A DNA stretch of 25,009 nt from a virus. A model generated the notes under the pieces. The model ran no database searches, was not told the DNA's origin, and was given only the letters and a program-made list of their open reading frames with translations. Within the stretch, counting starts at the first letter, position 1, and the number at the start of each line of letters is the position of its first letter. Positions 2,826 to 19,816 of this stretch are shown piece by piece. The stretch covers positions 1 to 25,009 of the IMG/VR virus record IMGVR_UViG_3300034062_006187. One strand, 5' to 3'. Made by a program: the position numbers and the translations under genes.

Positions 2826-4321
2826 GCGTCGAAAAGGTCTTCGGTCCTCCGGGCGCAGGCAAGACGACTTACCTACTCTCGGTGGTACAAAACGAACTCG
2901 CAGCGGACGTCCATCCGACGCAGATCGGCTACTTTGCGTTCACTCGCAAGGCAGCAACCGAAGCCCGTGACCGGGCGATCCAGAAGTTCCCGGCGTTGAA
3001 CTCGGACCTAGACTTCCCGTGGTTCCGTACCCTGCACTCGCTCGCCTACCGATGTCTCGGCATCACCAGCAAGGACATGATGGGCCCCGAGCACTACGCA
3101 GAGTTCGCTAAAGAGGCGGGGATTGAGTTGGGCGTGGAGAAGGGCGAAGAGGAGTTTGCCATCAAGGCGGATCACCCCATCCTGAACGAGGTCAACATCG
3201 CGCGGATCAAGGGCAAGGATCTTCGCCAGCATTACAACGAGAGCCGGATGGCGATCGAGTGGCATCACTTCGAGTATGTTGATCGGGCCTACAGACATTA
3301 CAAAGCCTCACGCGGGCTCCTGGACTTCACGGACTTGTTAGAGAAAGTTCTAGACGAACCTGACAGACTTCCGTCATTAAAAACATTAATTATTGACGAA
3401 GCTCAGGATTTATCGCAATTACAGTGGCGTCTCGTTAAAGAGCTTATCGAACGCGCCGAACGCACCTATATCGCCGGCGACGACGATCAAGCAGTCTACA
3501 CATGGGCCGGTGCGGACGTTGACTCCTTTCTCACTCTTGGCGGGGAGATCCGCGTCCTCGAGCAATCCTACCGCGTCCCCTCCAAGATCCACGCGCTCGC
3601 CGATCAGGTCGTCAATCGCATCCGCAAGCGTCAGCCCAAGGTCTGGAAGCCCCGCACCGAAGGCGGCGCGATCGTCTACTACAACGACTTCCATCACGTA
3701 GACATCACCCAAGGCGAGTGGCTAGTGCTCGCCGCCGCGAACTACATGCTCACCGATATGCACGAGTGGATCAAATCCCAAGGGCTGCTCTTCGAGCGTC
3801 ACGGACAACGGAGCATCCCCGAGTCCGTCCTCCATGCCGTCACCGGCTGGGAGCGCCTGCGCAAGGGCGGTGAAATCCCCTTCGAGACAGTCAAAACCAT
3901 CTACAAGTTCCTCGATCTCAGCGCCGTCAAGCGTGGGCACAAAGGGCTGAAGACGGCGAGCGTAGAAGCTATGTATACCCATGCCTCGCTGACCAAGGAC
4001 CACGGCCTACAGACCGATGCCATCTGGCACGAGGCGCTGACCAAGATCGCCGAAGACAAGCGCAACTACCTCATCGCGCTCCTGCGTCGTGGCGTGAAGG
4101 TCACCGGCAAGGTGCCGATCAAACTGTCCACGATTCACGGCGCCAAGGGCGGCGAGGCGGACAACGTCCTCCTCATCGGCGACCTTTCGACCAAGTTCGC
4201 GCAGGAGTACGACAAGAACTCCGATGACATCAACCGGCTGCTCTACGTCGGCATTACCCGCGCCAAGCAGTCTTTGCATTTTGTTTTACCCAAGAATTCT
4301 TACAAGGGGTTTCGACTTTGA
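2822..4321 (+). CDS. Superfamily 1 DNA helicase (UvrD/Rep/Dda-like)
   Basis: This is an ATP-dependent DNA helicase of superfamily 1A. Motifs in order: Walker A GPPGAGKTT (residues 8-16), Ia-like YFAFTRKAA (38-46), Walker B IDEAQDLS (191-198), motif III GDDDQAVYTWAGA (219-231), motif IV QSYRVP (248-253), motif V STIHGAKGGEAD (436-447) and motif VI VGITRAK (476-482). At 499 residues it is shorter than cellular UvrD or Rep (about 670-720), closer to compact phage enzymes such as T4 Dda. It lies directly before PolA and two genes after the primase. No DnaB/gp4-type replicative helicase is visible in the window, so this protein may supply unwinding at the fork or act in replication start and recombination. 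The ATG overlaps the previous stop (ATGA). A short patch around the Walker B motif is unusually AT-rich. Confidence 0.93.
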   Translation: MSVEKVFGPPGAGKTTYLLSVVQNELAADVHPTQIGYFAFTRKAATEARDRAIQKFPALNSDLDFPWFRTLHSLAYRCLGITSKDMMGPEHYAEFAKEAGIELGVEKGEEEFAIKADHPILNEVNIARIKGKDLRQHYNESRMAIEWHHFEYVDRAYRHYKASRGLLDFTDLLEKVLDEPDRLPSLKTLIIDEAQDLSQLQWRLVKELIERAERTYIAGDDDQAVYTWAGADVDSFLTLGGEIRVLEQSYRVPSKIHALADQVVNRIRKRQPKVWKPRTEGGAIVYYNDFHHVDITQGEWLVLAAANYMLTDMHEWIKSQGLLFERHGQRSIPESVLHAVTGWERLRKGGEIPFETVKTIYKFLDLSAVKRGHKGLKTASVEAMYTHASLTKDHGLQTDAIWHEALTKIAEDKRNYLIALLRRGVKVTGKVPIKLSTIHGAKGGEADNVLLIGDLSTKFAQEYDKNSDDINRLLYVGITRAKQSLHFVLPKNSYKGFRL

Positions 4322-6186: not shown

Positions 6187-6232
6187 TTGCGTTTGCGGTA
6201 TCGAGCGGTTAGAGTCGTAAACGAGAAAGGAG
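6187..6232 (+). promoter_or_regulatory. Candidate promoter and strong SD before the 6239 gene
   Basis: The gap after PolA holds TTGCGT (6187-6192), a 17-base spacer and TAGAGT (6210-6215), a modest sigma70-like match. AGAAAGGAG follows at 6224-6232, six bases before the ATG. The SD is clear; the promoter is a weak inference. Confidence 0.4.
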
Positions 6233-10582: not shown

Positions 10583-10813
10583 TCACGCAGTAGTCACCGC
10601 GTACCACTGGACGCCGTCCTGGTCCGTGTGGTCAAACTCCTCCCATCGACCACACGCCACTCCAGAGTACCAGCCGCCGTTGCACACATCGCCCCTGGTC
10701 CTAACGATCTTGGCAAAGGTGTCCGCGTCCCCCTCGTCCGTGAAATACATCACGCTGAAGCAGGTGCCGTAGGACTTCTTCGAGGCAACCGCAGTGGCCT
10801 TGGCTTTTGCCAT
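10583..10813 (-). CDS. Hypothetical leftward protein (76 aa)
   Basis: This is the only convincing minus-strand gene in the window. The ATG is preceded by AGAAAGGAG, there is a near-consensus promoter upstream, and a terminator follows the stop, so it forms a complete single-gene unit. The product begins with a lysine/alanine-rich segment and continues YGTCFSVMYFTDEGDADTFA and WYSGVACGRWEEF, a small mixed alpha/beta domain with three cysteines and many aromatics. It has no HTH and is not an obvious repressor. Function unknown. The convergent position and own promoter suggest a separately regulated moron-like gene. Confidence 0.8.
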   Translation of the reverse strand: MAKAKATAVASKKSYGTCFSVMYFTDEGDADTFAKIVRTRGDVCNGGWYSGVACGRWEEFDHTDQDGVQWYAVTTA

Positions 10814-10819
10814 AACTTT

Positions 10820-10898
10820 CTCCTTTCTGGTTGTTAAAGAACGCCGGCACCGTGAAGGGCCGACAACATATTATCTCATAGACTAGTCAATGAGTCAA
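10820..10898 (-). promoter_or_regulatory. Promoter, stem-loop and SD of the leftward gene
   Basis: On the minus strand, TTGACT (10893-10898), a 17-base spacer and GATAAT (10870-10875) make a near-consensus sigma70 promoter. A second TTGACT copy sits at 10885-10890. The predicted start near 10862 begins a stem (CGGCCC/GG-GCCG, one bulge, 10845-10862). AGAAAGGAG follows at 10820-10828, before the ATG. Confidence 0.75.
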
Positions 10899-11247
10899 CT
10901 AAATTAACTTGTTAAGAATCAAGGAGTTAAGTTGTTGGGTTTTGGGGAGGGTGTGGTTTTGATGCAACATGGATCACGGACCACGGGGCAGCAAATGACC
11001 GGCTGATGGTCGAAAAACACCAAAAACGCACATTAGTAGGACTCTGGAGGGGTCTACTATGTTTTTGTTTTTATTTTTTCAAAAAATGACGTAATAGACG
11101 TAATGGTGTAAGAAGTGTTGTAGATCAGTGAGTTATAGCTACACGGTACATTACAGGGGGTCAATAGGTGTAATTTCTCTGGGGTGCGCGCGCGGGATGA
11201 TTTTTTGAAAAAGAAAAATGTGTTGACCCTAAAAAAGTCTAACTAAA
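10899..11247. other. AT-rich intergenic region with short repeats
   Basis: There are about 350 bases without a convincing gene, markedly more AT-rich than the surroundings. It contains TTAACTTGTTAA, GACGTAATAGACGTAAT followed by GGTGTAA (11089-11109) with a further GGTGTAA near 11167, T/A runs around 11061-11086 and 11200-11218, and a GGGTCAA (11158)/TTGACCC (11223) inverted pair. A stem-loop at 11034-11059 carries a GGAGGG in its loop before an 11-codon ORF. A regulatory region is likely. A replication origin is possible but unproven. Confidence 0.5.
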
Positions 11248-11514: not shown

Positions 11515-12248
11515 AGCTACGCAGCAAGGCTGACAAGGAGTTCGGCAAGAAGATCGGCAAGGGCCTCCAGCCGCAGACGCTGGAAAAGTTGGCGCGGCCT
11601 GTTAAGCCACACAAGAACCGTGAGCTGACCACGCAGGAGTGGAAGTTCGTTAACGAGTTCGTCGCGGGAGACGGGCACGTTACGCTGAAGGAAGCCGTGG
11701 TCCGTGCGGGCTGGCCCGAGAAGCATGCCAAGAAGCGCGCCGAGGATCTGACCAACGCAGACAAGAACCCGCACATTGTCGCGGCGATCCAGAAAGCTCG
11801 AGCGGAGATGGCCGAGAAGTACGGAACTACGTACGAGCGGCACATGAAGGACTTACAGATCATTCGTGACCAGGCTCTGGCCGCGGGGGCGTATGGCGCC
11901 GCGGTGCAAGCGGAGTACCGTCGCGGGCAAGCTCTTGGAACGATCTACATCGATCGCAAGGAGATTCGGCACGGCACGATCGATTCCATGAGCAAGGAAG
12001 AGGTCATGCGCAAGCTCGAGGAGATCAAAAAGCTGTACGGCAACGGCAGCCCGATCATCGACATCACGCCAGAGCAAGTGAAGGAAAGCCTCAAGGAGCC
12101 GATCCAGCTCGAGCACGACGAGCCCGAAGACGCCGAGATCGAGGAAGCCGAAGAGGCAGAGGAGCTAGTGGATGCCAGCGAAGCCAGAGACGAGCCTGTA
12201 CCAGCGCCTAAAGGAAAACCTCCCAAACTGCCTTATTACCCGGATTGA
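11511..12248 (+). CDS. terS: Terminase small subunit
   Basis: TerS recognises the packaging site and hands DNA to the large subunit. The GTG at 11511 follows GGAGG and overlaps the previous stop. A longer in-frame start at 11433 would lie inside the upstream gene and is rejected. Residues about 55-92 (HVTLKEAVVRAGWPEKHA, KKRAEDLTNADKNPHIVAAI) form the HTH typical of phage TerS of the Terminase_2/XtmA type. They are followed by a long helix (about 95-150) suited to oligomerisation. The C-terminus is strongly acidic (EDAEIEEAEEAEELVD) and then proline-rich. Its last 77 bases overlap the nuclease gene. It lies 6 kb from TerL, which is unusual. Confidence 0.8.
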   Translation: MKLRSKADKEFGKKIGKGLQPQTLEKLARPVKPHKNRELTTQEWKFVNEFVAGDGHVTLKEAVVRAGWPEKHAKKRAEDLTNADKNPHIVAAIQKARAEMAEKYGTTYERHMKDLQIIRDQALAAGAYGAAVQAEYRRGQALGTIYIDRKEIRHGTIDSMSKEEVMRKLEEIKKLYGNGSPIIDITPEQVKESLKEPIQLEHDEPEDAEIEEAEEAEELVDASEARDEPVPAPKGKPPKLPYYPD

Positions 12249-12594
12249 GTCGCGGGTAAATCTTGGCATCCCGGACTGTTTCATTGCGCTGAAGCAAACT
12301 GGCGAGTTCGTCCCGGTCGAGCTCAAGGTGGTGAAGCACGGCCGCAAGGTGAAGCTTTCGCCACATCAGATCGCATTTCATGCGCGCCATGCGGAGCTTG
12401 GAGTGCGCACGTTCATTCTGGTGCTCTACGTGCCGCCGGGTAAGGTCGCATCGAGGGAAGGGCAGCTCTTGTTATTTTCTGGAAAGCAAGTGCTCGAGCT
12501 CGCGAAGTCTGGCATCGACACCGATCCGATCGTGCGCTATCACTACGGCGTGGTCCCGTGGCATATGCTCATGTACACACTTGCAGAGGCGTGA
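12172..12594 (+). CDS. PD-(D/E)XK nuclease (VRR-NUC/Holliday-junction-resolvase-like)
   Basis: This is a 140-residue restriction-like nuclease. RIESRVNLGIPDCFIAL (Glu26, Asp35) followed by VPVELKVV (Glu50, Lys52) gives the D...E-x-K core. LSPHQIAFHARHAELGVRTF supplies the Gln-containing helix seen in VRR-NUC and Hjc-like enzymes. Phage members act on branched recombination or replication intermediates before packaging. The ATG at 12172 follows GGAG by seven bases and lies 77 bases inside terS in another frame. The full motif set starts after this ATG, so the overlap looks genuine. Confidence 0.85.
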   Translation: MPAKPETSLYQRLKENLPNCLITRIESRVNLGIPDCFIALKQTGEFVPVELKVVKHGRKVKLSPHQIAFHARHAELGVRTFILVLYVPPGKVASREGQLLLFSGKQVLELAKSGIDTDPIVRYHYGVVPWHMLMYTLAEA

Positions 12595-12651
12595 GCCTTT
12601 GTTATAGATTCGGGTTGCTGGGATGTTCCAGCGTAGAAAGTTAGAAAGGAG
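12581..12651 (+). promoter_or_regulatory. Promoter-like sequence, stem-loop and duplicated SD
   Basis: TTGCAG (12581-12586), a 16-base spacer and TATAGA (12603-12608) are a weak promoter candidate. A stem GCTGG/CCAGC (12617-12632) follows, then AGAAAGTTAGAAAGGAG (12635-12651) before the ATG at 12658. The layout matches other leaders in this zone. Confidence 0.5.
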
Positions 12652-12657
12652 ACGACA

Positions 12658-12951
12658 ATGTCAGAGCATACTTCGGGCCCTTGGAGCGTCGATGGATCGC
12701 CCACAACAGATTTTGATGTTGTGTGTGCTGATGGGCGTATCGCAATGGTTAATGGCGAAGACTGGAGTGCTGATATGACAGAGGCAAATGCTTACTTGCT
12801 CGCAGCAGCTCCCGAGCTGCTGGGTGCCGTGCAGCTTGCCTTGCGTGCACTCAATGTCGCGCCCCGGTTTAAGGTTCCGGGTGCGGGGGATAGTTACGAG
12901 GTTTGCTCGGAGCTCGAGCGAGTGCTTCGCAAAGTTGAGGGGGCCCTGTGA
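12658..12951 (+). CDS. Hypothetical phage protein (97 aa)
   Basis: The protein begins with HTSGPWSVDG and has NAYLLAAAPELLGAVQLALRAL in the middle. Both are hallmarks of a very common small phage protein family of unknown function, in which the AAAPELL helix is conserved. It is soluble and acidic. It starts the first short block after the nuclease and is coupled to the next gene by a GTGA overlap. Confidence 0.85.
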   Translation: MSEHTSGPWSVDGSPTTDFDVVCADGRIAMVNGEDWSADMTEANAYLLAAAPELLGAVQLALRALNVAPRFKVPGAGDSYEVCSELERVLRKVEGAL

Positions 12952-13184
12952 AAACTAAATTTTATGTTGGAGCAATGGAGTCCGACTACGCAACCATTCA
13001 CGGTGAGCGCGAGGAAGTGCACTTTTTGACGAGGGTCGACTGTGTGCTAACAGCAAGTGACGAGAACGGTGCCGAGATTCTTAATAAGTTGCTGCGTGGG
13101 GCGGACAAGGAGTTCATCCGATCGGACAATCCTGTGCGGACGTTTGTACGGTTGGACGTGCTTAACCAAATGGGGGCCGCATGA
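12948..13184 (+). CDS. Hypothetical protein (78 aa)
   Basis: The GTG start overlaps the previous stop, and its own stop overlaps the following ATG. The N-terminal half is beta-rich (KTKFYVGAMESDYATIHG, VHFLTRVDCVLTAS). No motif is recognised. Coupling on both sides supports a real gene. Confidence 0.7.
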   Translation: MKTKFYVGAMESDYATIHGEREEVHFLTRVDCVLTASDENGAEILNKLLRGADKEFIRSDNPVRTFVRLDVLNQMGAA

Positions 13185-13390
13185 AAGCCATGACACTACC
13201 GCCCCGGACAAAGCTCTGGGGCTGGGATTACAACAAAGAAAAACAATTTAGGATGACCGGCAAGGAGTGGCATCAACACGCAAAGTGCGAGACGTTCAAA
13301 ACTGAGCGGGGATCGGACTCTGCGTGGCGCAATGGTTGCGAGGTGTGGCTCGATGGGACCGACATCGAGCACAAGGAGCGCCGCGGATGA
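13181..13390 (+). CDS. Hypothetical protein (69 aa)
   Basis: An ATGA overlap with the previous gene sets the start. The product is rich in tryptophan and charged residues (KLWGWDYNKEKQF, EWHQHAKCETF). No known family. A small soluble protein of the accessory block. Confidence 0.65.
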   Translation: MKAMTLPPRTKLWGWDYNKEKQFRMTGKEWHQHAKCETFKTERGSDSAWRNGCEVWLDGTDIEHKERRG

Positions 13391-13515
13391 AACAAAAGCA
13401 ATTCCCACCGGGGCCGCTGAAGTTACCGACCGATCCGCCGCCGAAGCAGGGCATGATCCGATTTGTACTGTTCATGATCTGGCAATCGATATTGCACGGG
13501 AGGGGTCGACGGTAG
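13387..13515 (+). CDS. Short proline-rich, possibly membrane-associated ORF (42 aa)
   Basis: The ATG overlaps the preceding stop (ATGA). The peptide has a proline-rich N-terminus (FPPGPLKLPTDPPPK), then a short hydrophobic segment (MIRFVLFMIWQSIL) and a basic end. The TAG falls directly before the TTGACA of the next leader. It is supported only by coupling and the hydrophobic pattern. Confidence 0.45.
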   Translation: MKQKQFPPGPLKLPTDPPPKQGMIRFVLFMIWQSILHGRGRR

Positions 13516-13573
13516 TTGACAGGGCACTCTAGTTGTACGAGGATTTCATTCGGCCGCTGGCCGCAGAAAGGAG
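13516..13573 (+). promoter_or_regulatory. Promoter-like sequence, stem-loop and SD before the PP-loop gene
   Basis: A consensus TTGACA (13516-13521), a 17-base spacer and a poor -10 GAGGAT (13539-13544) precede a CGGCC/GGCCG stem (13551-13563). AGAAAGGAG (13565-13573) follows. The SD points to the TTG at 13581 as start. Confidence 0.5.
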
Positions 13574-13580
13574 AAAGAAC

Positions 13581-14312
13581 TTGGAACCGATTACACGAAA
13601 CCCACTAGTGGTGGCTTACGGCATGGGCGTTGATTCGACGGCCATGCTCGTCGGCCTGTGGCAACGGGGCGAACGGCCCGATCTGATCCTGTTCGCTGAT
13701 ACCGGCGATGAAAAACCGGAAACCTACGCATACCTCGAGGTCATCAATGGATGGCTCGATCGCGTGGGATTTCCGCGCGTCACCGTCGTGAAGAATCCGC
13801 GGCCGAAATCGAACGATCGAAGCTTGTCGGAGAGTTGTGTGCGCAATCGCGTACTTCCTGCGCTCGCGTACGGGCAACATCAATGCTCGATCGTGTGGAA
13901 AATCGACCCGCAGCGAAAGTTTGTGAAGAATTGGCAGCCGGCACGTGATGCATGGGCGCAAGGGCTGACCGTCACGCAATGTGTCGGATACGACGCCGGC
14001 CCTCGCGATAGCGTTCGCCGATTTAAGGCAGAGGGCAAAGCTGCGGATGGTTACGCAAACCGATTCCCGCTGATCGAGTGGGGCTGGGACCGAGACCGAT
14101 GCAAGCTCGAGATCGCCGCGGCGGGGTTGCCGATCCCAGCGAAGTCAAGCTGCTTTCATTGCCCTGCGTCCAAGCGCGAGGAGATCATCGAGTTGCGCGA
14201 ACGACACCCGGATTTGTACGCTCGAGCTCTCGAAATGGAACGGCTCGCACGTGAGCGCGGGCTAAAAACTATCAAAGGGCTCGGGCGTACTTTTAGCTGG
14301 TCGAATGTTTGA
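13581..14312 (+). CDS. PP-loop ATPase, PAPS-reductase-like
   Basis: This 243-residue protein is of the adenine-nucleotide alpha-hydrolase (PP-loop) superfamily, related to phosphoadenosine phosphosulfate reductase. The PP-loop is AYGMGVDSTAML (residues 12-23), with an FADTGDEKPETYAYL motif (38-52) in the usual second position. Cysteines at 102, 134, 191 and 194, the last two as CFHC, could bind metal or an Fe-S cluster. TTG at 13581, seven bases after AGAAAGGAG, is preferred to TTG at 13533. Members of this superfamily activate substrates by adenylation in sulfur assimilation, tRNA thiolation and DndC-type DNA phosphorothioation. No DndA, DndD or DndE neighbour is visible, so the substrate is unknown. 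Confidence 0.85.
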   Translation: MEPITRNPLVVAYGMGVDSTAMLVGLWQRGERPDLILFADTGDEKPETYAYLEVINGWLDRVGFPRVTVVKNPRPKSNDRSLSESCVRNRVLPALAYGQHQCSIVWKIDPQRKFVKNWQPARDAWAQGLTVTQCVGYDAGPRDSVRRFKAEGKAADGYANRFPLIEWGWDRDRCKLEIAAAGLPIPAKSSCFHCPASKREEIIELRERHPDLYARALEMERLARERGLKTIKGLGRTFSWSNV

Positions 14313-14334
14313 ATCACTCACAATTGGAGGCGTT

Positions 14335-14523
14335 ATGACTCGCGACGAAAAAGTTGATTTTCTGGTCGACGAATCGATGACTCGGATCCTCGAGGGTGCC
14401 GAAGATATGCTGCTCATGCACTACTTGCTCACCGGCTTTGTCGGCTTTAATAACATGACCGATGAAGAGCTCGACGCGGAGATCGCCGAGCTCGAGGCGC
14501 TGAAAGCTGAGGACGAAGAATGA
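14335..14523 (+). CDS. Hypothetical acidic protein (62 aa)
   Basis: The ATG at 14335 lies after TTGGAGG. An upstream ATG at 14305, overlapping the PP-loop gene, would add ten residues but lacks a site. The product is strongly acidic and helical, with a central hydrophobic patch (MLLMHYLLTGFVGF) and an acidic tail (AEIAELEALKAEDEE). Its stop overlaps the next ATG. Unknown function. Confidence 0.65.
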   Translation: MTRDEKVDFLVDESMTRILEGAEDMLLMHYLLTGFVGFNNMTDEELDAEIAELEALKAEDEE

Positions 14524-14876
14524 ACGCCGCGCCCGAGATTGTGAAAACCGGCTGGGCGTCGATCACGGAGACAATGGCCGGCCTGTATGTTTCCCTCGAG
14601 GGCACCACGTCCGAAGACATGGAGCCGTTGATCTTTGAAACCAAAGAAGACGCCGAGGGCGAGCGCGCGCAATACATCGACGCTTGTCTCGAGGCCTACT
14701 CGATGGATGCGGACGTCGATCCCGAAGAGCTCCCCGAGCTCATGGAATCCCGGCGGGCAAGTTTGGAAAACGAAGAGCACGTTCTATTTGTCGGCGTCGA
14801 CACGGCCGGCGATGTTTTCGAGCTCGATCCGGTCACGCTCGAGGTGCGCGGGCCGATCGCGCGCCCCGATCGATAG
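14520..14876 (+). CDS. Hypothetical acidic protein (118 aa)
   Basis: ATGA coupling to the previous gene sets the start. The protein is acidic. It has a conserved-looking N-terminal beta segment (TGWASITETMAGLYVSLEG), a helical middle (DAEGERAQYIDACLEAYS) and a strand-rich end (HVLFVGVDTAGDVFELDP). No motif is recognised. Confidence 0.7.
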   Translation: MNAAPEIVKTGWASITETMAGLYVSLEGTTSEDMEPLIFETKEDAEGERAQYIDACLEAYSMDADVDPEELPELMESRRASLENEEHVLFVGVDTAGDVFELDPVTLEVRGPIARPDR

Positions 14877-14888
14877 CACGGGGGGGGC

Positions 14889-14958
14889 TTGCGCGTACTT
14901 TTTATTTCGTGGGAGTATTGCGACGTCGGGCCCATACCGGGCCCGCACTAGAAAGGAG
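14889..14958 (+). promoter_or_regulatory. Promoter-like sequence, stem-loop and SD
   Basis: A GC-rich stem over the upstream stop, then TACTTTTTATTT, may terminate the previous block. TTGCGC (14889-14894), an 18-base spacer and GAGTAT (14913-14918) are promoter-like. A perfect CGGGCCC/GGGCCCG stem (14927-14945) follows, then AGAAAGGAG (14950-14958). Confidence 0.55.
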
Positions 14959-14967
14959 AGAGTCACC

Positions 14968-15483
14968 ATGGGTTGGTTATTTTTGCCCGAGTGCACTACA
15001 CGTGCCGAGCTTGTCGCACATCTTCGCCGCCCGGAGCGTTTCGGCGAGACTTTCGAGCTCGCCCGCGCTTGCGTCGTCGGCTCGCATCATTGGTATTTAG
15101 TCCGCCACCGCGAGAGCGGGATGCACTGGATCGGGCTCGACCTTCTATCGTCCGCCCGTCGTCGGATGGGCTGGGGATACAAAGACCTCGACGAAACTGT
15201 CGGCCCCTGCGCCGTAGATTGCCCGGTCTCGTATCTGGACGCGCCACACGTGAAGCTCGAGGGATGGGCCGCACAATGGCGCGAGCGTGTCCGCGCGTAC
15301 CATGCGACGAAAAAGGCGCGCCCCGAGTATGCGCCCGGGCTCGTCGTCAAGCTTTGCGACTGGACCTATACGCTCGAGCAGCGCGTCGGCGCTCGCCGGG
15401 GCTGGACCGTCACACGTTCGGACGGCCAACAATTCAGAATGAAGGCCGGCCAGCTTGCGCGCGCCGAGGTGGTGTCATGTTGA
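14968..15483 (+). CDS. DUF6927-like phage protein (171 aa)
   Basis: AGAAAGGAG nine bases upstream fixes the ATG at 14968. Longer in-frame starts lie in non-coding leader or the previous gene. The product begins MGWLFLPECTTRAELVAHL and has WIGLDLL, then GWGYKDLDETVGPCAVDCP and VSYLD. This matches my memory of the DUF6927 pattern (MGWLF, WGYKDMDES.GP, DCP.SYL), a soluble phage and plasmid family of unknown function. The C-terminal third is basic. The end overlaps the next gene by 7 bases. Confidence 0.8.
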   Translation: MGWLFLPECTTRAELVAHLRRPERFGETFELARACVVGSHHWYLVRHRESGMHWIGLDLLSSARRRMGWGYKDLDETVGPCAVDCPVSYLDAPHVKLEGWAAQWRERVRAYHATKKARPEYAPGLVVKLCDWTYTLEQRVGARRGWTVTRSDGQQFRMKAGQLARAEVVSC

Positions 15484-16169
15484 AAACCGTGCGCCAGTCC
15501 GCAAACCGAAAAACCGGGCCGATCGCCGTCACGTACCGCGCCGGATCCGGGGATGTTTTCAATACTTGCCCGGCCACGTGCCCGCTCAACCCGCGGCCCG
15601 AGAAGGGCGCGCAATCGATCGATGCCGAGTATCTCGACGCCGTTCGGCGCGCCGTGCCACGGAATGGCACGGCGTGGACATACTCACATTTTCCCGCCGA
15701 GCAGCTCCCGGCGCCGGCTCCCGGGGAGACCGTGATAAATCACAGCGCCGATACACTCGAGGGCGCGATCGATGCCACGGCGAAAGGGCGCGCGGCCGTG
15801 CTCACGGTAGCGAAGGGCGCCACGTGGCCGACTCGTGTCGGAGATGTTCGGCTCGTGCGTTGCCCGGCTGAGGTGTCGGATCGGATCAACTGCGCGACGT
15901 GTGGCAATGGCCGCCCATTGTGTGCACGCGGAGCCGATCGGCGGCTCGTGGTCGTATTCGAAGCCCACGGCGCGCAAGCTGCACGCGTCGGGACCGATAA
16001 GGCGGGCGGATGCTACGGCGCCGGCGGCCCGGTGGCGTTGCAGTGGTCCCGCACTAGCACGGGCGGCGCCCGGGATGACGTGGCCGCCCTCGAGCAATTC
16101 GCCCGGGAGCTCCCGCCGGGCTCATTCCTGCGTCATCACGTGGTCGGCGATCTTGGGCGCCCCGACTAG
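15477..16169 (+). CDS. DUF7227-like cysteine-rich protein (230 aa)
   Basis: The ATG at 15477 overlaps the preceding stop region. The protein begins MLKTVRQSANRKTGPIAVTY and carries CPATCPLNP (Cys31, Cys35), WTYSHFP, TVINHSADT, VRCPAE (Cys129) and CATCGNGRPLCAR (Cys139, Cys142, Cys149), with GGCYG near 179. This cysteine pattern suggests zinc or an Fe-S cluster. It matches a phage/plasmid family I recall as DUF7227, function unknown. It is distinct from the radical-SAM Gp37/Gp68 family, because no CxxxCxxC is present. Coupled with the DUF6927-like gene. Confidence 0.8.
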   Translation: MLKTVRQSANRKTGPIAVTYRAGSGDVFNTCPATCPLNPRPEKGAQSIDAEYLDAVRRAVPRNGTAWTYSHFPAEQLPAPAPGETVINHSADTLEGAIDATAKGRAAVLTVAKGATWPTRVGDVRLVRCPAEVSDRINCATCGNGRPLCARGADRRLVVVFEAHGAQAARVGTDKAGGCYGAGGPVALQWSRTSTGGARDDVAALEQFARELPPGSFLRHHVVGDLGRPD

Positions 16170-16196
16170 GGGCCCCTTGTTTGCTTTTTATCTTTT
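16155..16196 (+). terminator. Probable intrinsic terminator after the DUF7227-like gene
   Basis: GGGCGCCCC, GACTA and GGGGCCCC form an 8-bp stem with one bulged base around the stop codon. TTGTTTGCTTTTTATCTTTT follows. The T-rich tract overlaps the promoter-like sequence of the next block. Confidence 0.6.
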
Positions 16197-16250
16197 AGGC
16201 TAGTATCGGGGCCGGGGCAATTTCGCCCCGGCCAGAAAGTAAGAAAGGAG
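16177..16250 (+). promoter_or_regulatory. Promoter-like sequence, perfect stem-loop and duplicated SD before the DUF932 gene
   Basis: TTGTTT (16177-16182), an 18-base spacer and TAGTAT (16201-16206) could form a promoter. The 9-bp stem GGCCGGGGC/GCCCCGGCC with a 6-base loop (16210-16233) has no following T-run, so it is a 5' leader hairpin rather than a terminator. AGAAAGTAAGAAAGGAG (16234-16250) follows. Confidence 0.6.
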
Positions 16251-16259
16251 ACTCTAATC

Positions 16260-17354
16260 ATGTCGACACTCATGCAAGCTTCCCGGCAATGGTCCACTCG
16301 CCCGCCCGAGGAGCGCTTCACCAGCTTGCCCGCCATGCGCGCGAAGCTCGAGCAGCTCCGCGCGAATTCTCGCGCGGCCGTTTTTAGTTCGCGCCAGCTC
16401 GGCGTCATTCCCGCGGATGACAACGCCGGGATCCTGATCGAGGGCCCGAGCGGCCACACGGCCGCCCCGACGAATTGGGCATTCGGCCAGCTCGCGACGC
16501 TCTCGGGCGCCCCGGCCGCCTACCTTCGGAGCTTGCCGGCTCCGCTGGCCGCGGATTGTCTCAACTACGGGCTCAAGGTCGAGCGCGACGCCACCGATAC
16601 CGGCGTCCTGCTCACGCGCGGCGCCGACGGGCTCGAGCTCCGGGCCGCCACTGGCCCGCGGTACGGGCGCATTTGGAATGTCGACGTAGTGCGCGCCCTT
16701 GAGGAGCGCTTCGGCGACGGCGTGACGGGAGACTTCCGCGTCCCCGGCGAATTCGGCCGCGGGCTCGCCGAGGTGACAACGGCCAATACGACACTATTCG
16801 CCGGCGATCGCGATATGTTCGTTTTTCTCGCCGATGAAGTTAACCGGATCGAGCTCCCGGGCCGGCGTGACGGCCAGACCGGCCAGCTCGCCCGCGGATT
16901 CTTTGTCACCAATTCCGAGACCGGCGCCAGCGCCCTAAAAATCAAAACATTCTTGTTCGATTACGTGTGCGCGAATCGGATCGTATGGGGCGCCCATGAG
17001 CTCGAAGAGATTTCGATCCGTCACACGGCCAGCGCTCCCGATCGATTCCTCGAGGAGGCCGCCCCGGCGCTTCTCGAGTACTCACGCGCGAGCGCTTCGA
17101 ACGTGTCGAACGTCCTGCGATCGGCGCAAGCTTCGAAGCTCGACAAGGTCGACGCTTTCCTTTCGTCACGTTTCGGGCCCCGGATCGCCGAGCGCGTCAA
17201 GGCGGTACACATGACCGAGGAGGGCCGGCCGATCGAGACGGTATGGGACGCCGTGACGGGTGCGACGGCGTACGCGCGCTCGATCCCATGGACCGCCGAG
17301 CGTGTGGAATTCGAAGAGCTCGCGGGCGGACTGCTCGATAAGGTGGCCGCGTGA
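16260..17354 (+). CDS. DUF932 phage/plasmid-like protein (364 aa)
   Basis: The diagnostic segment is FFVTNSETG (residues 214-222), then ALKIKTFLFDYVCANRIVWG (225-244). It is the conserved core of DUF932, a family found in phages, plasmids and integrative elements. Upstream, GPRYGRIWNVDVVRALEERF (132-151) matches the family pattern of an early Y..i.n.dvv. Family length is about 250-370 residues, so this is complete. Biochemical function is unknown; a role linked to replication or anti-restriction has been discussed only from gene context. It has its own leader hairpin and SD, and its stop overlaps the next GTG. Confidence 0.88.
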   Translation: MSTLMQASRQWSTRPPEERFTSLPAMRAKLEQLRANSRAAVFSSRQLGVIPADDNAGILIEGPSGHTAAPTNWAFGQLATLSGAPAAYLRSLPAPLAADCLNYGLKVERDATDTGVLLTRGADGLELRAATGPRYGRIWNVDVVRALEERFGDGVTGDFRVPGEFGRGLAEVTTANTTLFAGDRDMFVFLADEVNRIELPGRRDGQTGQLARGFFVTNSETGASALKIKTFLFDYVCANRIVWGAHELEEISIRHTASAPDRFLEEAAPALLEYSRASASNVSNVLRSAQASKLDKVDAFLSSRFGPRIAERVKAVHMTEEGRPIETVWDAVTGATAYARSIPWTAERVEFEELAGGLLDKVAA

Positions 17355-17596: not shown

Positions 17597-17628
17597 CACG
17601 CGGCCCGGCTCCCGCCGGCCGCCCTCGA

Positions 17629-17653
17629 GGGCCCCATGAGGGGCCCTTTTTTT
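17629..17653 (+). terminator. Intrinsic terminator closing the accessory zone
   Basis: GGGCCCC, an ATGA loop and GGGGCCC form a perfect 7-bp stem followed by seven T, 33 bases after the stop of the previous gene. Confidence 0.92.
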
Positions 17654-17715
17654 ATGCCCGCTCGGGGCGCTCTCCGGCCCTTCCCGGGGCCGCCCGGCCA
17701 GCTCTCGCCAGCCCT

Positions 17716-17964
17716 GCGGTATCGATCGCCCGGCCGCCCTTCCAGCTCCCGCGGGCCGTGCTCGAGCGCGCCACGCTCCTGCCCTCGAGCTCGAGGGCCG
17801 CTCCCGGCCATGGCTGGCCCGAGAGGCTCGGGCCGTGGGCCGTGCAACTCTCTCCGCGGTATCGATCGCCGGGGCCCTTTCGCCCTGGTGCGTGGTGCGT
17901 GGTGCGTGGTGCGTGGTACGTGGTCCGCGGGCCGTTCGCCCTGGTGCTCGAGCTCGAGGGCCGC
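17716..17964. repeat. Dispersed direct repeats (15 and 18 bp)
   Basis: GCGGTATCGATCGCC occurs at 17716-17730 and 17856-17870. CTCGAGCTCGAGGGCCGC occurs at 17784-17801 and 17947-17964. TTCGCCCTGGTGC occurs at 17879-17891 and 17935-17947. The order suggests an old partial duplication or paired binding sites. Confidence 0.85.
17888..17922 (+). repeat. Tandem GTGCGTG array (5 units)
   Basis: There are four exact 7-bp GTGCGTG units and a fifth with one change (GTACGTG), in non-coding DNA. It could be a slippage product or a protein-binding array. Confidence 0.9.
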
Positions 17965-18010
17965 GGCCCGGGGCTCGAGGGGCTCCCGCCCGGGCCCGGA
18001 TCTGGGCGCC

Positions 18011-18102
18011 GTGTATGTCATTCCGTGGCCGTGTATGTCATCCCGGCCGGGGCCCTTTGTATGTTTCCGTGTATGTCATTCCGGCGCGTGTATGTTTGTC
18101 AT
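18011..18102 (+). repeat. Iteron-like GTGTATGTCAT repeats
   Basis: GTGTATGTCATTCCG occurs at 18011 and 18069, GTGTATGTCATCCCG at 18031, and the variant GTGTATGTTTGTCAT at 18088. A partial TGTATGT lies near 18058. All are in the same orientation, with starts about 20, 26, 12 and 19 bases apart. Same-strand repeats at roughly two-turn spacing resemble replication iterons or regulator sites. Confidence 0.8.
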
Positions 18103-18108
18103 TTTTCG

Positions 18109-18136
18109 ATTATCCCGGGCATTTTCTCGGGATAAT
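18109..18136. promoter_or_regulatory. Perfect 9-bp dyad next to the iteron-like repeats
   Basis: ATTATCCCG, a 10-base spacer and CGGGATAAT form a perfect inverted repeat. There is no following T-run. It may be an operator, a cruciform at an origin or a packaging/cleavage site. Confidence 0.6.
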
Positions 18137-18264
18137 GGGCCGCGATGCACGGCGCTACGCGCTAGGCAAAATCGCGCGAAACGCAGGCCAAAAAACAGGC
18201 CGCTTTGCTGGCTTCGCGGGCGTATGCCAAATTTCAGACAGCCAATAGGCAGCCAAAGAGAACG

Positions 18265-18328
18265 GGGGTACCCCGGTAGAAAAACAGGCCCGGGTTGATC
18301 AACTTGTCAACTCGTGCAAAAATTTTGC
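18265..18328. promoter_or_regulatory. Three palindromes upstream of TerL
   Basis: GGGGTACCCC (18265-18274), GTTGATCAAC (18294-18303) and GCAAAAATTTTGC (18316-18328) lie in a row just before the TerL start. TTGTCA (18304-18309) could be a -35, with no good -10. This looks like a regulated promoter area, by inference. Confidence 0.45.
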
Positions 18329-18352
18329 GCATATGAAAAGCAATTGGACCCT

Positions 18353-19816
18353 ATGAGCGCCGTTCCGAAGGAGATCGAGGAGGAGCGTCTGCGGCTGGAA
18401 TACCGGCTGATGCTGCTCGAGACGCAGGACAAGGCGCGCAAGAACTTCATCGATTTCGTGCGGTACGTGTGGCCGTCCGCGATCCTCGGTGAGCATCACC
18501 GTCGTATGGCCAGTGCATTCGATCGCATTGCCAACGGAACGCTGAAACGGCTGATCGTGAACATGCCGCCCCGGCATACGAAGTCGGAGTTCGCGTCGTA
18601 CCTGTTGCCCGCGTATCTGATGGGCCGTAAGCCTGGACTCCAGGCCCTTGAGGCAACACACACGGCAGAACTAGCTGTTAAATTCGGCCGTAAAGTCCGC
18701 GACCTGATGGATTCTGATCGCTACAAGGAACTGTTCCCGGACGTCGTGCTGAAGCAGGACAGCAAAGCAGCCGGACGCTGGGATACGAACGCAGGCGGTA
18801 GTTACTTCGCCGTCGGTGTCGGCGGTGCCGTGACCGGCCGCGGTGCGGATATCTTGATCATCGACGACCCGCACTCGGAGCAGGACGCACTGTCGGAACT
18901 GGCCTTGGACAATGCGTGGGACTGGTACCAGGGCGGTCCGCGTACCCGTTTGCAACCGGGCGGTGCGATCGTGATGGTGATGACGCGTTGGGGCACGAAG
19001 GATCTAACCGCCCGTTTGCTCAAGGCACAGGCGAGCCGCGGGGCGGATAAATGGGAAGTGATTGAGTTCCCGGCGATCTTGCCGAGTGGTAAGCCGCTGT
19101 GGCCGGAGTTCTGGAAGCTTGAGGAACTAGAGGCTGTCAAGGCATCGCTGTCGGTCCAGAAGTGGAACGCGATGTACCAGCAACAGCCGACGAACGATGA
19201 GGGCGCGATCCTGAAGCGTGAGTGGTGGCGCATCTGGCCTCATGAGGCCCCGCCGATCGTGAACTACATCATCCAGAGCTATGACACTGCCTACAGCAAA
19301 AAGGAAACGGCCGACTTCTCGGTGATTACGACTTGGGGCGTGTTTTACCCGGACCAAGACTCAGGGCCCAACATTGTGCTGCTCGATGTCACGCGTGGTC
19401 GGTGGGACTTTCCTGAACTGAAACGGATCGCGAAGGACGAGTACAAACGCTGGAATCCTGATAACGTATTGATCGAAGCGAAGGCGACGGGCGTGACGCT
19501 CCAGCAGGAACTGCGGCGCGTCGGTATTCCTGTCACCATGTACACACCGGGCGGCAGGCGATCGGGGACGGACAAGATCAGTCGCGCGAACGCGGTCGCG
19601 CCGATCTTGGAGTCGGGGATGGTATGGGCCCCGGACACCGATTGGGCGGAAGAGCTGGTCGAGGAGTGCGCCGCGTTCCCGAACGGCGACAATGACGACA
19701 TGGTGGACTCGACGACCCAGGCGCTGATGCGGTTCCGTCAAGGGAACTTCGTGACGTTGAACACCGACGAGAAGCCGGAGCCGTCTGGACGCACGCTTGC
19801 TCCCGAATACTACTGA
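18353..19816 (+). CDS. terL: Terminase large subunit
   Basis: TerL is the ATP-driven packaging motor and nuclease. ATPase motifs: Walker A-like NMPPRHTKSE (residues 70-79), an ATP-site segment LEATHTAELAVKFG (99-112), Walker B DILIIDDP (166-173) and a coupling motif MTRWG (210-214). The C-terminal RNase H-like nuclease is marked by SYDTAYS (Asp311), IEAKATG (374-380) and DNDDMVDSTTQAL (Asp448-452 region). A length of 487 residues is normal. The ATG at 18353 is preferred to a GTG at 18314, although its ribosome site is weak. TerS is not adjacent; it lies about 6 kb upstream. The virion genes follow on the same strand. Confidence 0.95.
   Translation: MSAVPKEIEEERLRLEYRLMLLETQDKARKNFIDFVRYVWPSAILGEHHRRMASAFDRIANGTLKRLIVNMPPRHTKSEFASYLLPAYLMGRKPGLQALEATHTAELAVKFGRKVRDLMDSDRYKELFPDVVLKQDSKAAGRWDTNAGGSYFAVGVGGAVTGRGADILIIDDPHSEQDALSELALDNAWDWYQGGPRTRLQPGGAIVMVMTRWGTKDLTARLLKAQASRGADKWEVIEFPAILPSGKPLWPEFWKLEELEAVKASLSVQKWNAMYQQQPTNDEGAILKREWWRIWPHEAPPIVNYIIQSYDTAYSKKETADFSVITTWGVFYPDQDSGPNIVLLDVTRGRWDFPELKRIAKDEYKRWNPDNVLIEAKATGVTLQQELRRVGIPVTMYTPGGRRSGTDKISRANAVAPILESGMVWAPDTDWAEELVEECAAFPNGDNDDMVDSTTQALMRFRQGNFVTLNTDEKPEPSGRTLAPEYY

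Follow-up and report, generated by a model that had tools for sequence, protein, structure and literature searches.

We analysed a 25,009-nucleotide stretch of viral DNA (positions 1 to 25,009 of IMG/VR record IMGVR_UViG_3300034062_006187; hereafter, the window), which carries five short leaders, A to E, each placed directly before a gene. Judged from its large terminase (TerL), this 25 kb fragment derives from a freshwater phage whose nearest named relative is Phage DSL-LC04 (75.6% identity), followed by phage 023Pt_psg01 and the Pelagibacter phages HTVC027P and HTVC023P. DSL-LC04 was assembled from lake water, belongs to the proposed family 'Dishuiviridae', and has a predicted pseudomonad host (PMC10611076). 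The window encodes an AEP-type primase, a PolA-type DNA polymerase, and VRR-NUC/Holliday-junction-resolvase-like, PAPS-reductase-family, DUF7227, and DUF932 proteins. An earlier note on this DNA had described the five leaders as one recurrent cassette of promoter-like boxes, stem-loop, and Shine–Dalgarno (SD) motif. All of its motifs were found in place (Table 1). The common order held for leaders B to E, whereas in leader A a boxA-like GTTCTTTAACA lies between the stem and the SD.

The SD motif AGAAAGGAG occurs eight times in the window against 0.32 expected, a number reached in none of 100 shuffled sequences, and seven of the eight copies precede gene starts. The eighth (3523-3531, minus strand) falls inside a helicase-like gene encoded on the plus strand, probably by chance. 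AGAAAGGAG matches the complement of an extended 16S 3' tail, CUCCUUUCU. Two other leaders, at 6224 and 8625, showed no 5' hairpin. The promoter-like TTGCGT-17-TAGAGT of the former predicts a start almost at the SD, so that this leader is really devoid of a 5' stem, in line with the note, which had seen no clear stem there.

Table 1. Leaders, associated genes, and terminators in the window (positions on the minus strand are given in the direction of transcription where single elements are listed).
Feature	Position	Strand	Elements and remarks
Leader A	10811-10898	minus	promoter, bulged 5' hairpin, boxA-like, SD; ATG 10813
Leader A, -35 TTGACT	10898-10893	minus	
Leader A, -10 GATAAT	10875-10870	minus	
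Leader A, hairpin	10864-10843	minus	bulged
Leader A, boxA-like GTTCTTTAACA	10842-10832	minus	
Leader A, SD AGAAAGGAG	10828-10820	minus	
Gene behind leader A	10583-10813	minus	76 aa, no Pfam match
Terminator after leader-A gene	10579-10548	minus	
VRR-NUC-like/Holliday-junction-resolvase-like gene	12172-12594	plus	PHROG 2165/5702; upstream of exchange slot
Leader B	12581-12657	plus	-35 TTGCAG 12581-12586; -10 TAGATT 12605-12610; hairpin 12617-12632; AGAAAG 12635-12640; AGAAAGGAG 12643-12651
Exchangeable gene behind leader B	12658-12951	plus	phrog_1273, function unassigned
Leader C	13516-13580	plus	-35 TTGACA 13516-13521; -10 GAGGAT 13539-13544; hairpin 13551-13563; AGAAAGGAG 13565-13573
PAPS-reductase-family gene behind leader C	13581-14312	plus	TTG start
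Leader D	14889-14967	plus	-35 TTGCGC 14889-14894; -10 GAGTAT 14913-14918; hairpin 14927-14945; AGAAAGGAG 14950-14958
Gene behind leader D	14968-15483	plus	171 aa, no family found
DUF7227 gene, after leader-D gene	15477-16169	plus	
Terminator-like hairpin of DUF7227 gene	16155-16176	plus	core 16159-16173; runs into leader E -35
Leader E	16177-16259	plus	-35 TTGTTT 16177-16182; -10 TAGTAT 16201-16206; hairpin 16210-16233; AGAAAG 16234-16239; AGAAAGGAG 16242-16250
DUF932 gene behind leader E	16260-17354	plus	phrog_1362
TerL gene	18314-19816		

The stems had been read as selected structure. Within the window, this held only for leader E, whose stem was better than its dinucleotide shuffles (z = -3.2). 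Since one stem in five is no proof of structure, the relatives have to decide, and about 150 related loci were collected for comparison. We took AGAAAG before an open reading frame as the mark of a leader, without requiring a hairpin, which gave 181 non-redundant intergenic leaders. A stem-loop of -6 kcal/mol or lower was present in 51% of these as compared with 17% after dinucleotide shuffling, and one of -10 kcal/mol or lower in 27.6% as compared with 3.5%. AGAAAG before starts within coding sequence gave no hairpin excess (12.5% vs 14.1% shuffled at -6 kcal/mol, 3.3% vs 2.6% at -10 kcal/mol), which ties the signal to the intergenic leaders. That the stems are functionless GC-rich hairpins formed by chance beside a strong SD would suit the four window stems that singly do no better than shuffles. 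The family-wide excess with none in the coding controls, together with the fixed promoter spacing, makes this hardly credible.

Promoter and terminator counts were made on 89 distinct (non-redundant) hairpin leaders. A sigma-70-like promoter pair scoring at least 14 was found in 90% of them, in 20% of the shuffled sequences, and in 21% of hairpins without an AGAAAG/TACAGG tail. The hexamers of the family are weak and variable, though sigma-70-like. In a strict consensus scan of the window, only leader A passed, and the main support for the putative promoters of B to E is that the relatives share their layout. Between the end of the -10 box and the start of the stem, the commonest spacing was 6–7 nt. 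Bacterial transcription usually begins about 7 nt past the -10 box, which would put the start of the hairpin on or beside position +1. The candidate boxes of A to E end 3–8 bases upstream of the stems, where the earlier note had given 3–9, and its proposal that the transcripts begin with the stem agrees with these predicted starts, with a reservation for leader E that is discussed below.

Downstream of the stem the layout was also regular. From the start of the hairpin to the start codon, the median distance was 43 nt (interquartile range 39–46), and the gap between stem and AGAAAG was mostly 1–10 nt. AGAAAG was doubled, with 1–2 nt between the copies, in 65 of 111 leaders and in 10 of 120 coding controls. 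In nine relatives of about 60 kb and in DSL-LC04, the doubled sites lay nearly all on the TerL strand, most of them about 1–14 kb upstream of TerL; the exceptions were one record without a doubled AGAAAG and one site on the opposite strand. As a sole diagnostic, the doubled motif AGAAAGNNAGAAAGGAG was rejected, because a collection scan with it gave mostly chance matches. The true cassettes in that scan came from the same phage group.

Comparison of the leaders showed that pairing is kept where the letters change. Among 61 DUF932 leaders, the hairpin stays at the same place with 24 different sequences, and the stems are wholly different between leaders of one genome. Two-sided changes were seen between close relatives, as in GGCCGGGGC..GCCCCGGCC vs GGCCGGGAC..GTCCCGGCC and in GCTGG..CCAGC vs GCTGA..TCAGC. 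Because MAFFT alignments mis-register the stems, pair changes were counted on ungapped, flank-anchored comparisons, 117 of which had alignable flanks; the statistics ignore relatedness. Two-sided changes that keep the pair numbered 41 (23.3 expected, maximum of 500 simulations 36), and one-sided breaks of the stem 131 (195 expected). Stem conservation in related phages, on which the earlier note had staked its proposal, is therefore present, as different sequences at the same place with pair-keeping changes on both sides.

Stem pairs gained through G-T outnumbered those gained through A-C by 26 to 12, as against 4 to 6 in the coding controls. The bias favors sense-strand RNA over a DNA palindrome. 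This bears on the idea that the repeats are DNA elements, either repressor operators or short homologies for recombination, with the hairpins as a by-product. Inverted repeats can be operators, and the leaders do act as sites of gene exchange (see below), but the sense-strand bias and the complete dissimilarity of stems within one genome render this reading very unlikely.

Across the hairpin leaders, the stems measured 4–12 bp and the loops 3–9 nt. No common motif was found in their loop or stem sequences, and an Rfam scan matched no family. Only 6 of the 89 hairpins were followed by at least five T in 8 nt; an intrinsic terminator or attenuator was rejected for lack of this U-run. Leader A and its relatives come closest to a recognizable signal. 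Its order of promoter, hairpin, boxA, and AGAAAG recurs in six loci (L067, L073, L090, L134, L146, and L160), all with a strong consensus promoter and GTTCTTTAACA ahead of a single small gene, and some of these relatives have GAAAA or AGAAA loops. A hairpin followed by a boxA-like element resembles the boxB-boxA order of rrn leaders, a likeness seen here in the DNA sequence only. The hairpin could thus be the recognition site of a phage or host factor, serving antitermination (nut/put-like) or binding a regulatory protein that couples expression to the stage of infection. We regard this as improbable: the loops and stems of the other leaders have no common sequence, boxA is absent from B to E, and single-gene units have no need of antitermination.

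The leaders are often closely joined to the end of the preceding gene. An intrinsic terminator lies just upstream of 31 of the 89 hairpin leaders, as compared with 1.3 in shuffles. In nested promoters (L030:5331, L117:1969, L092:2866, and L140:7492), the -35 box sits in the terminator loop and the T-run serves as the promoter spacer; in several relatives, the stop codon of the VRR-NUC gene forms part of the -35 TTGACA. In the window, leader B overlaps a hairpin (12583-12602, z = -3.4) with the VRR-NUC stop codon in its loop, and the loop of the terminator-like hairpin before leader E contains most of the DUF7227 stop codon.

In the slot that follows the VRR-NUC gene, the leaders are conserved, with identities reaching 100%, and the following gene differs. 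For 55 of 60 pairs with a leader identity of at least 80%, the gene identity over the first 150 bases was below 60%, roughly what a global alignment gives for unrelated sequences. Identity ends at the ribosome site or the start codon. A shared HTPGPW start marks some of the swapped genes, which may be distantly related; others show no relationship. DUF932 shows the opposite pattern, one gene with many leaders. Taken together, the two patterns indicate that leader and gene are separable modules. The cassette-like gene uptake suggested earlier for this phage is supported in a narrower form, with the leader behind VRR-NUC retained and the gene exchanged at the SD or start codon.

On balance, we favor the explanation that the leader is an insulated one-gene expression module, the hairpin of which protects the 5' end of the mRNA whatever its sequence. 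The module would be transcribed by the host sigma-70-type RNA polymerase, mostly for a single gene, giving monocistronic messages. It would often open with a terminator closing the preceding gene. Next would come a promoter, frequently one that overlaps this terminator or the stop codon before it, then the hairpin, placed where the transcript begins, a strong, often doubled AGAAAG/AGAAAGGAG ribosome site, and the gene. The hairpin most probably acts by shape and position only. It would leave few or no unpaired 5' bases, hindering pyrophosphate removal and 5'-end-dependent decay and so stabilizing the message, and it would shield the ribosome site against pairing with upstream RNA. A 5' hairpin is reported to impede RppH and to stabilize bla mRNA (PMC3997798), and B. 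subtilis RppH requires at least two unpaired 5' bases, according to work cited in PMC4227774. Being independent of the gene behind it, the module would offer a ready slot for the exchange of accessory genes. A broader proposal, which we put forward tentatively, is a family-wide rule of 'any hairpin at +1, then an AGAAAG-type ribosome site': a 5' cap-like module with the conserved leader as a landing pad, in which hairpins turn over freely and foreign genes are expressed at once.

The hairpin may instead be mainly a translational insulator that folds first and keeps the ribosome site uncovered, with little effect on decay. Its place directly before a fixed ribosome site with exchangeable genes behind is consistent with such a role, as are the predicted folds of B, D, and E, where the ribosome site falls outside the stem. 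We consider it unlikely, as insulation alone does not account for a stem beginning at the predicted +1, and the folds leave the ribosome site no more than moderately open (median unpaired probability 0.71).

This moderate openness also counts against the protective module that we favor, and so do several other results. Stems A, B, C, and D gave z values of only -1.0, -0.6, -0.5, and -1.3 against shuffles. About half of the intergenic AGAAAG leaders have no strict stem, many of them showing bulged stems that the strict rule misses (seen by eye, uncounted). In leader E, just 3 bases separate the -10 box from the stem; its transcript could therefore begin inside the 5' arm, and +1 may lie downstream of the hairpin start. 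The excess of two-sided changes depends on the flank threshold: the loosest gave 259 against 226 expected, no clear excess with a simulation maximum of 259, and the strictest gave 7 against 4.0, too few events. With kinship also uncorrected, we take the counts as moderate evidence that stem pairing is kept through two-sided changes above chance.

Some features of the window and its relatives stand apart from the leaders. In many relatives, one gene of the virion gene region has a separate hairpin, CAGNCGGTGCGNNAAACCGNCTG then CTTTTCATGGA, before it (upstream of the starts at L115:12033, L120:12062, L125:7417, L144:8679, and L161:24470); its stem has clear two-sided changes, and the element was not found in the window. 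At 11031-11060, an AT-rich segment with the inverted repeat TAGTAGGACTCTGGAGGGGTCTACTA, a possible operator, separates the minus-strand gene from the plus-strand genes. The roughly 700 bases before the TerL gene (17597-18313) hold no convincing gene; they open with a terminator (17627-17648) and contain the short tandem repeats TGGTGCG (x5.6) and GCCGTGTATGTCATCCCGTG (x1.9). A tRNA scan found none. A clear cassette was found neither in the DUF932-bearing cultured relatives (Synechococcus phage S-ESS1 and Erythrobacter phage ZS04) nor in the Pelagibacter phages. The DUF932 homologue of ZS04 (L285:3992-5128) carries an integrase annotation, probably a misannotation. A TerL search for the host in 84,980 genomes returned one metagenome-assembled Verrucomicrobia contig only, which was uninformative.

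The module would probably provide any new gene with a stable, translatable message. Dozens of independent 5' hairpins that keep their shape and not their letters form a natural test bed for whether 5'-end structure by itself controls the life and output of mRNA in the course of infection. A concrete route for the swapping of phage accessory genes is also suggested, in which exchange takes place at the border of the ribosome site while the leader stays constant. For the many uncultured freshwater phages of this group, the cassette can serve annotation by marking where transcripts and genes start.

Among known systems, the hairpin promoters of N4 type (a uniform short hairpin with a 3-nt loop, used by the virion RNA polymerase) were rejected in view of the range of stem and loop lengths; the lack of a common sequence and the sigma-70-like boxes upstream also disfavor them. 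Morons of lambdoid phages are accessory genes inserted among phage genes with their own promoter and terminator. In the VRR-NUC slot, by contrast, genes alone are swapped, behind a regulatory leader that is retained. The PeSLs (promoter-early stem-loops) of T4-like phages are reportedly small, repeated intergenic cassettes of a host-type promoter and a stem-loop terminator near accessory genes, linked to shuffling. The present cassettes are alike in coupling a promoter to an intrinsic terminator between genes (31 of 89, a third) and in their association with gene shuffling (leader kept and gene swapped in 55 of 60 pairs). They differ in that PeSL stem-loops are terminators, whereas here a second, non-terminating hairpin lies at the predicted +1, and the constant feature is this sequence-variable hairpin with a fixed, often doubled AGAAAG ribosome site after it. 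The conserved T4 early-promoter sequence is missing, and the phages are unrelated to T4, their TerL pointing to DSL-LC04 and the Pelagibacter phages. This comparison draws on the citation of PeSLs in PMC4503421 and on general background.

In cluster K mycobacteriophages, the SAS/ESAS repeats provide many small genes with a ribosome-site-containing sequence, and in about half of the cases an inverted repeat lies upstream; ESAS contains a SigA-like promoter and has one sequence per subcluster, and the authors state that the differences do not support RNA pairing (PMC3203893, PMC11373665). Repeated ribosome site, inverted repeat, and promoter are common to both systems, but the stems described here have no common sequence and keep their pairing. 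Membership was rejected, since the shared 13-bp GGGATAGGAGCCC and the one-consensus 17-bp inverted repeats are absent and the motif is AGAAAG(GAG). In ompA, papA, and an engineered bla, a stem-loop at the extreme 5' end precedes an exposed ribosome site, as summarized in PMC3997798 from its references 92-95. In the phage leaders, the stem is likewise predicted to lie near the 5' end (-10-to-stem mode 6–7 nt), with the ribosome site downstream; those examples are single host genes, whereas this is a family-wide, repeated, and exchangeable phage design with a putative stabilizing role. The shuffling of promoter and terminator already resembles that of the PeSLs, and what appears to be new is the fusion of a sequence-free hairpin at +1 to a fixed, often doubled ribosome site.

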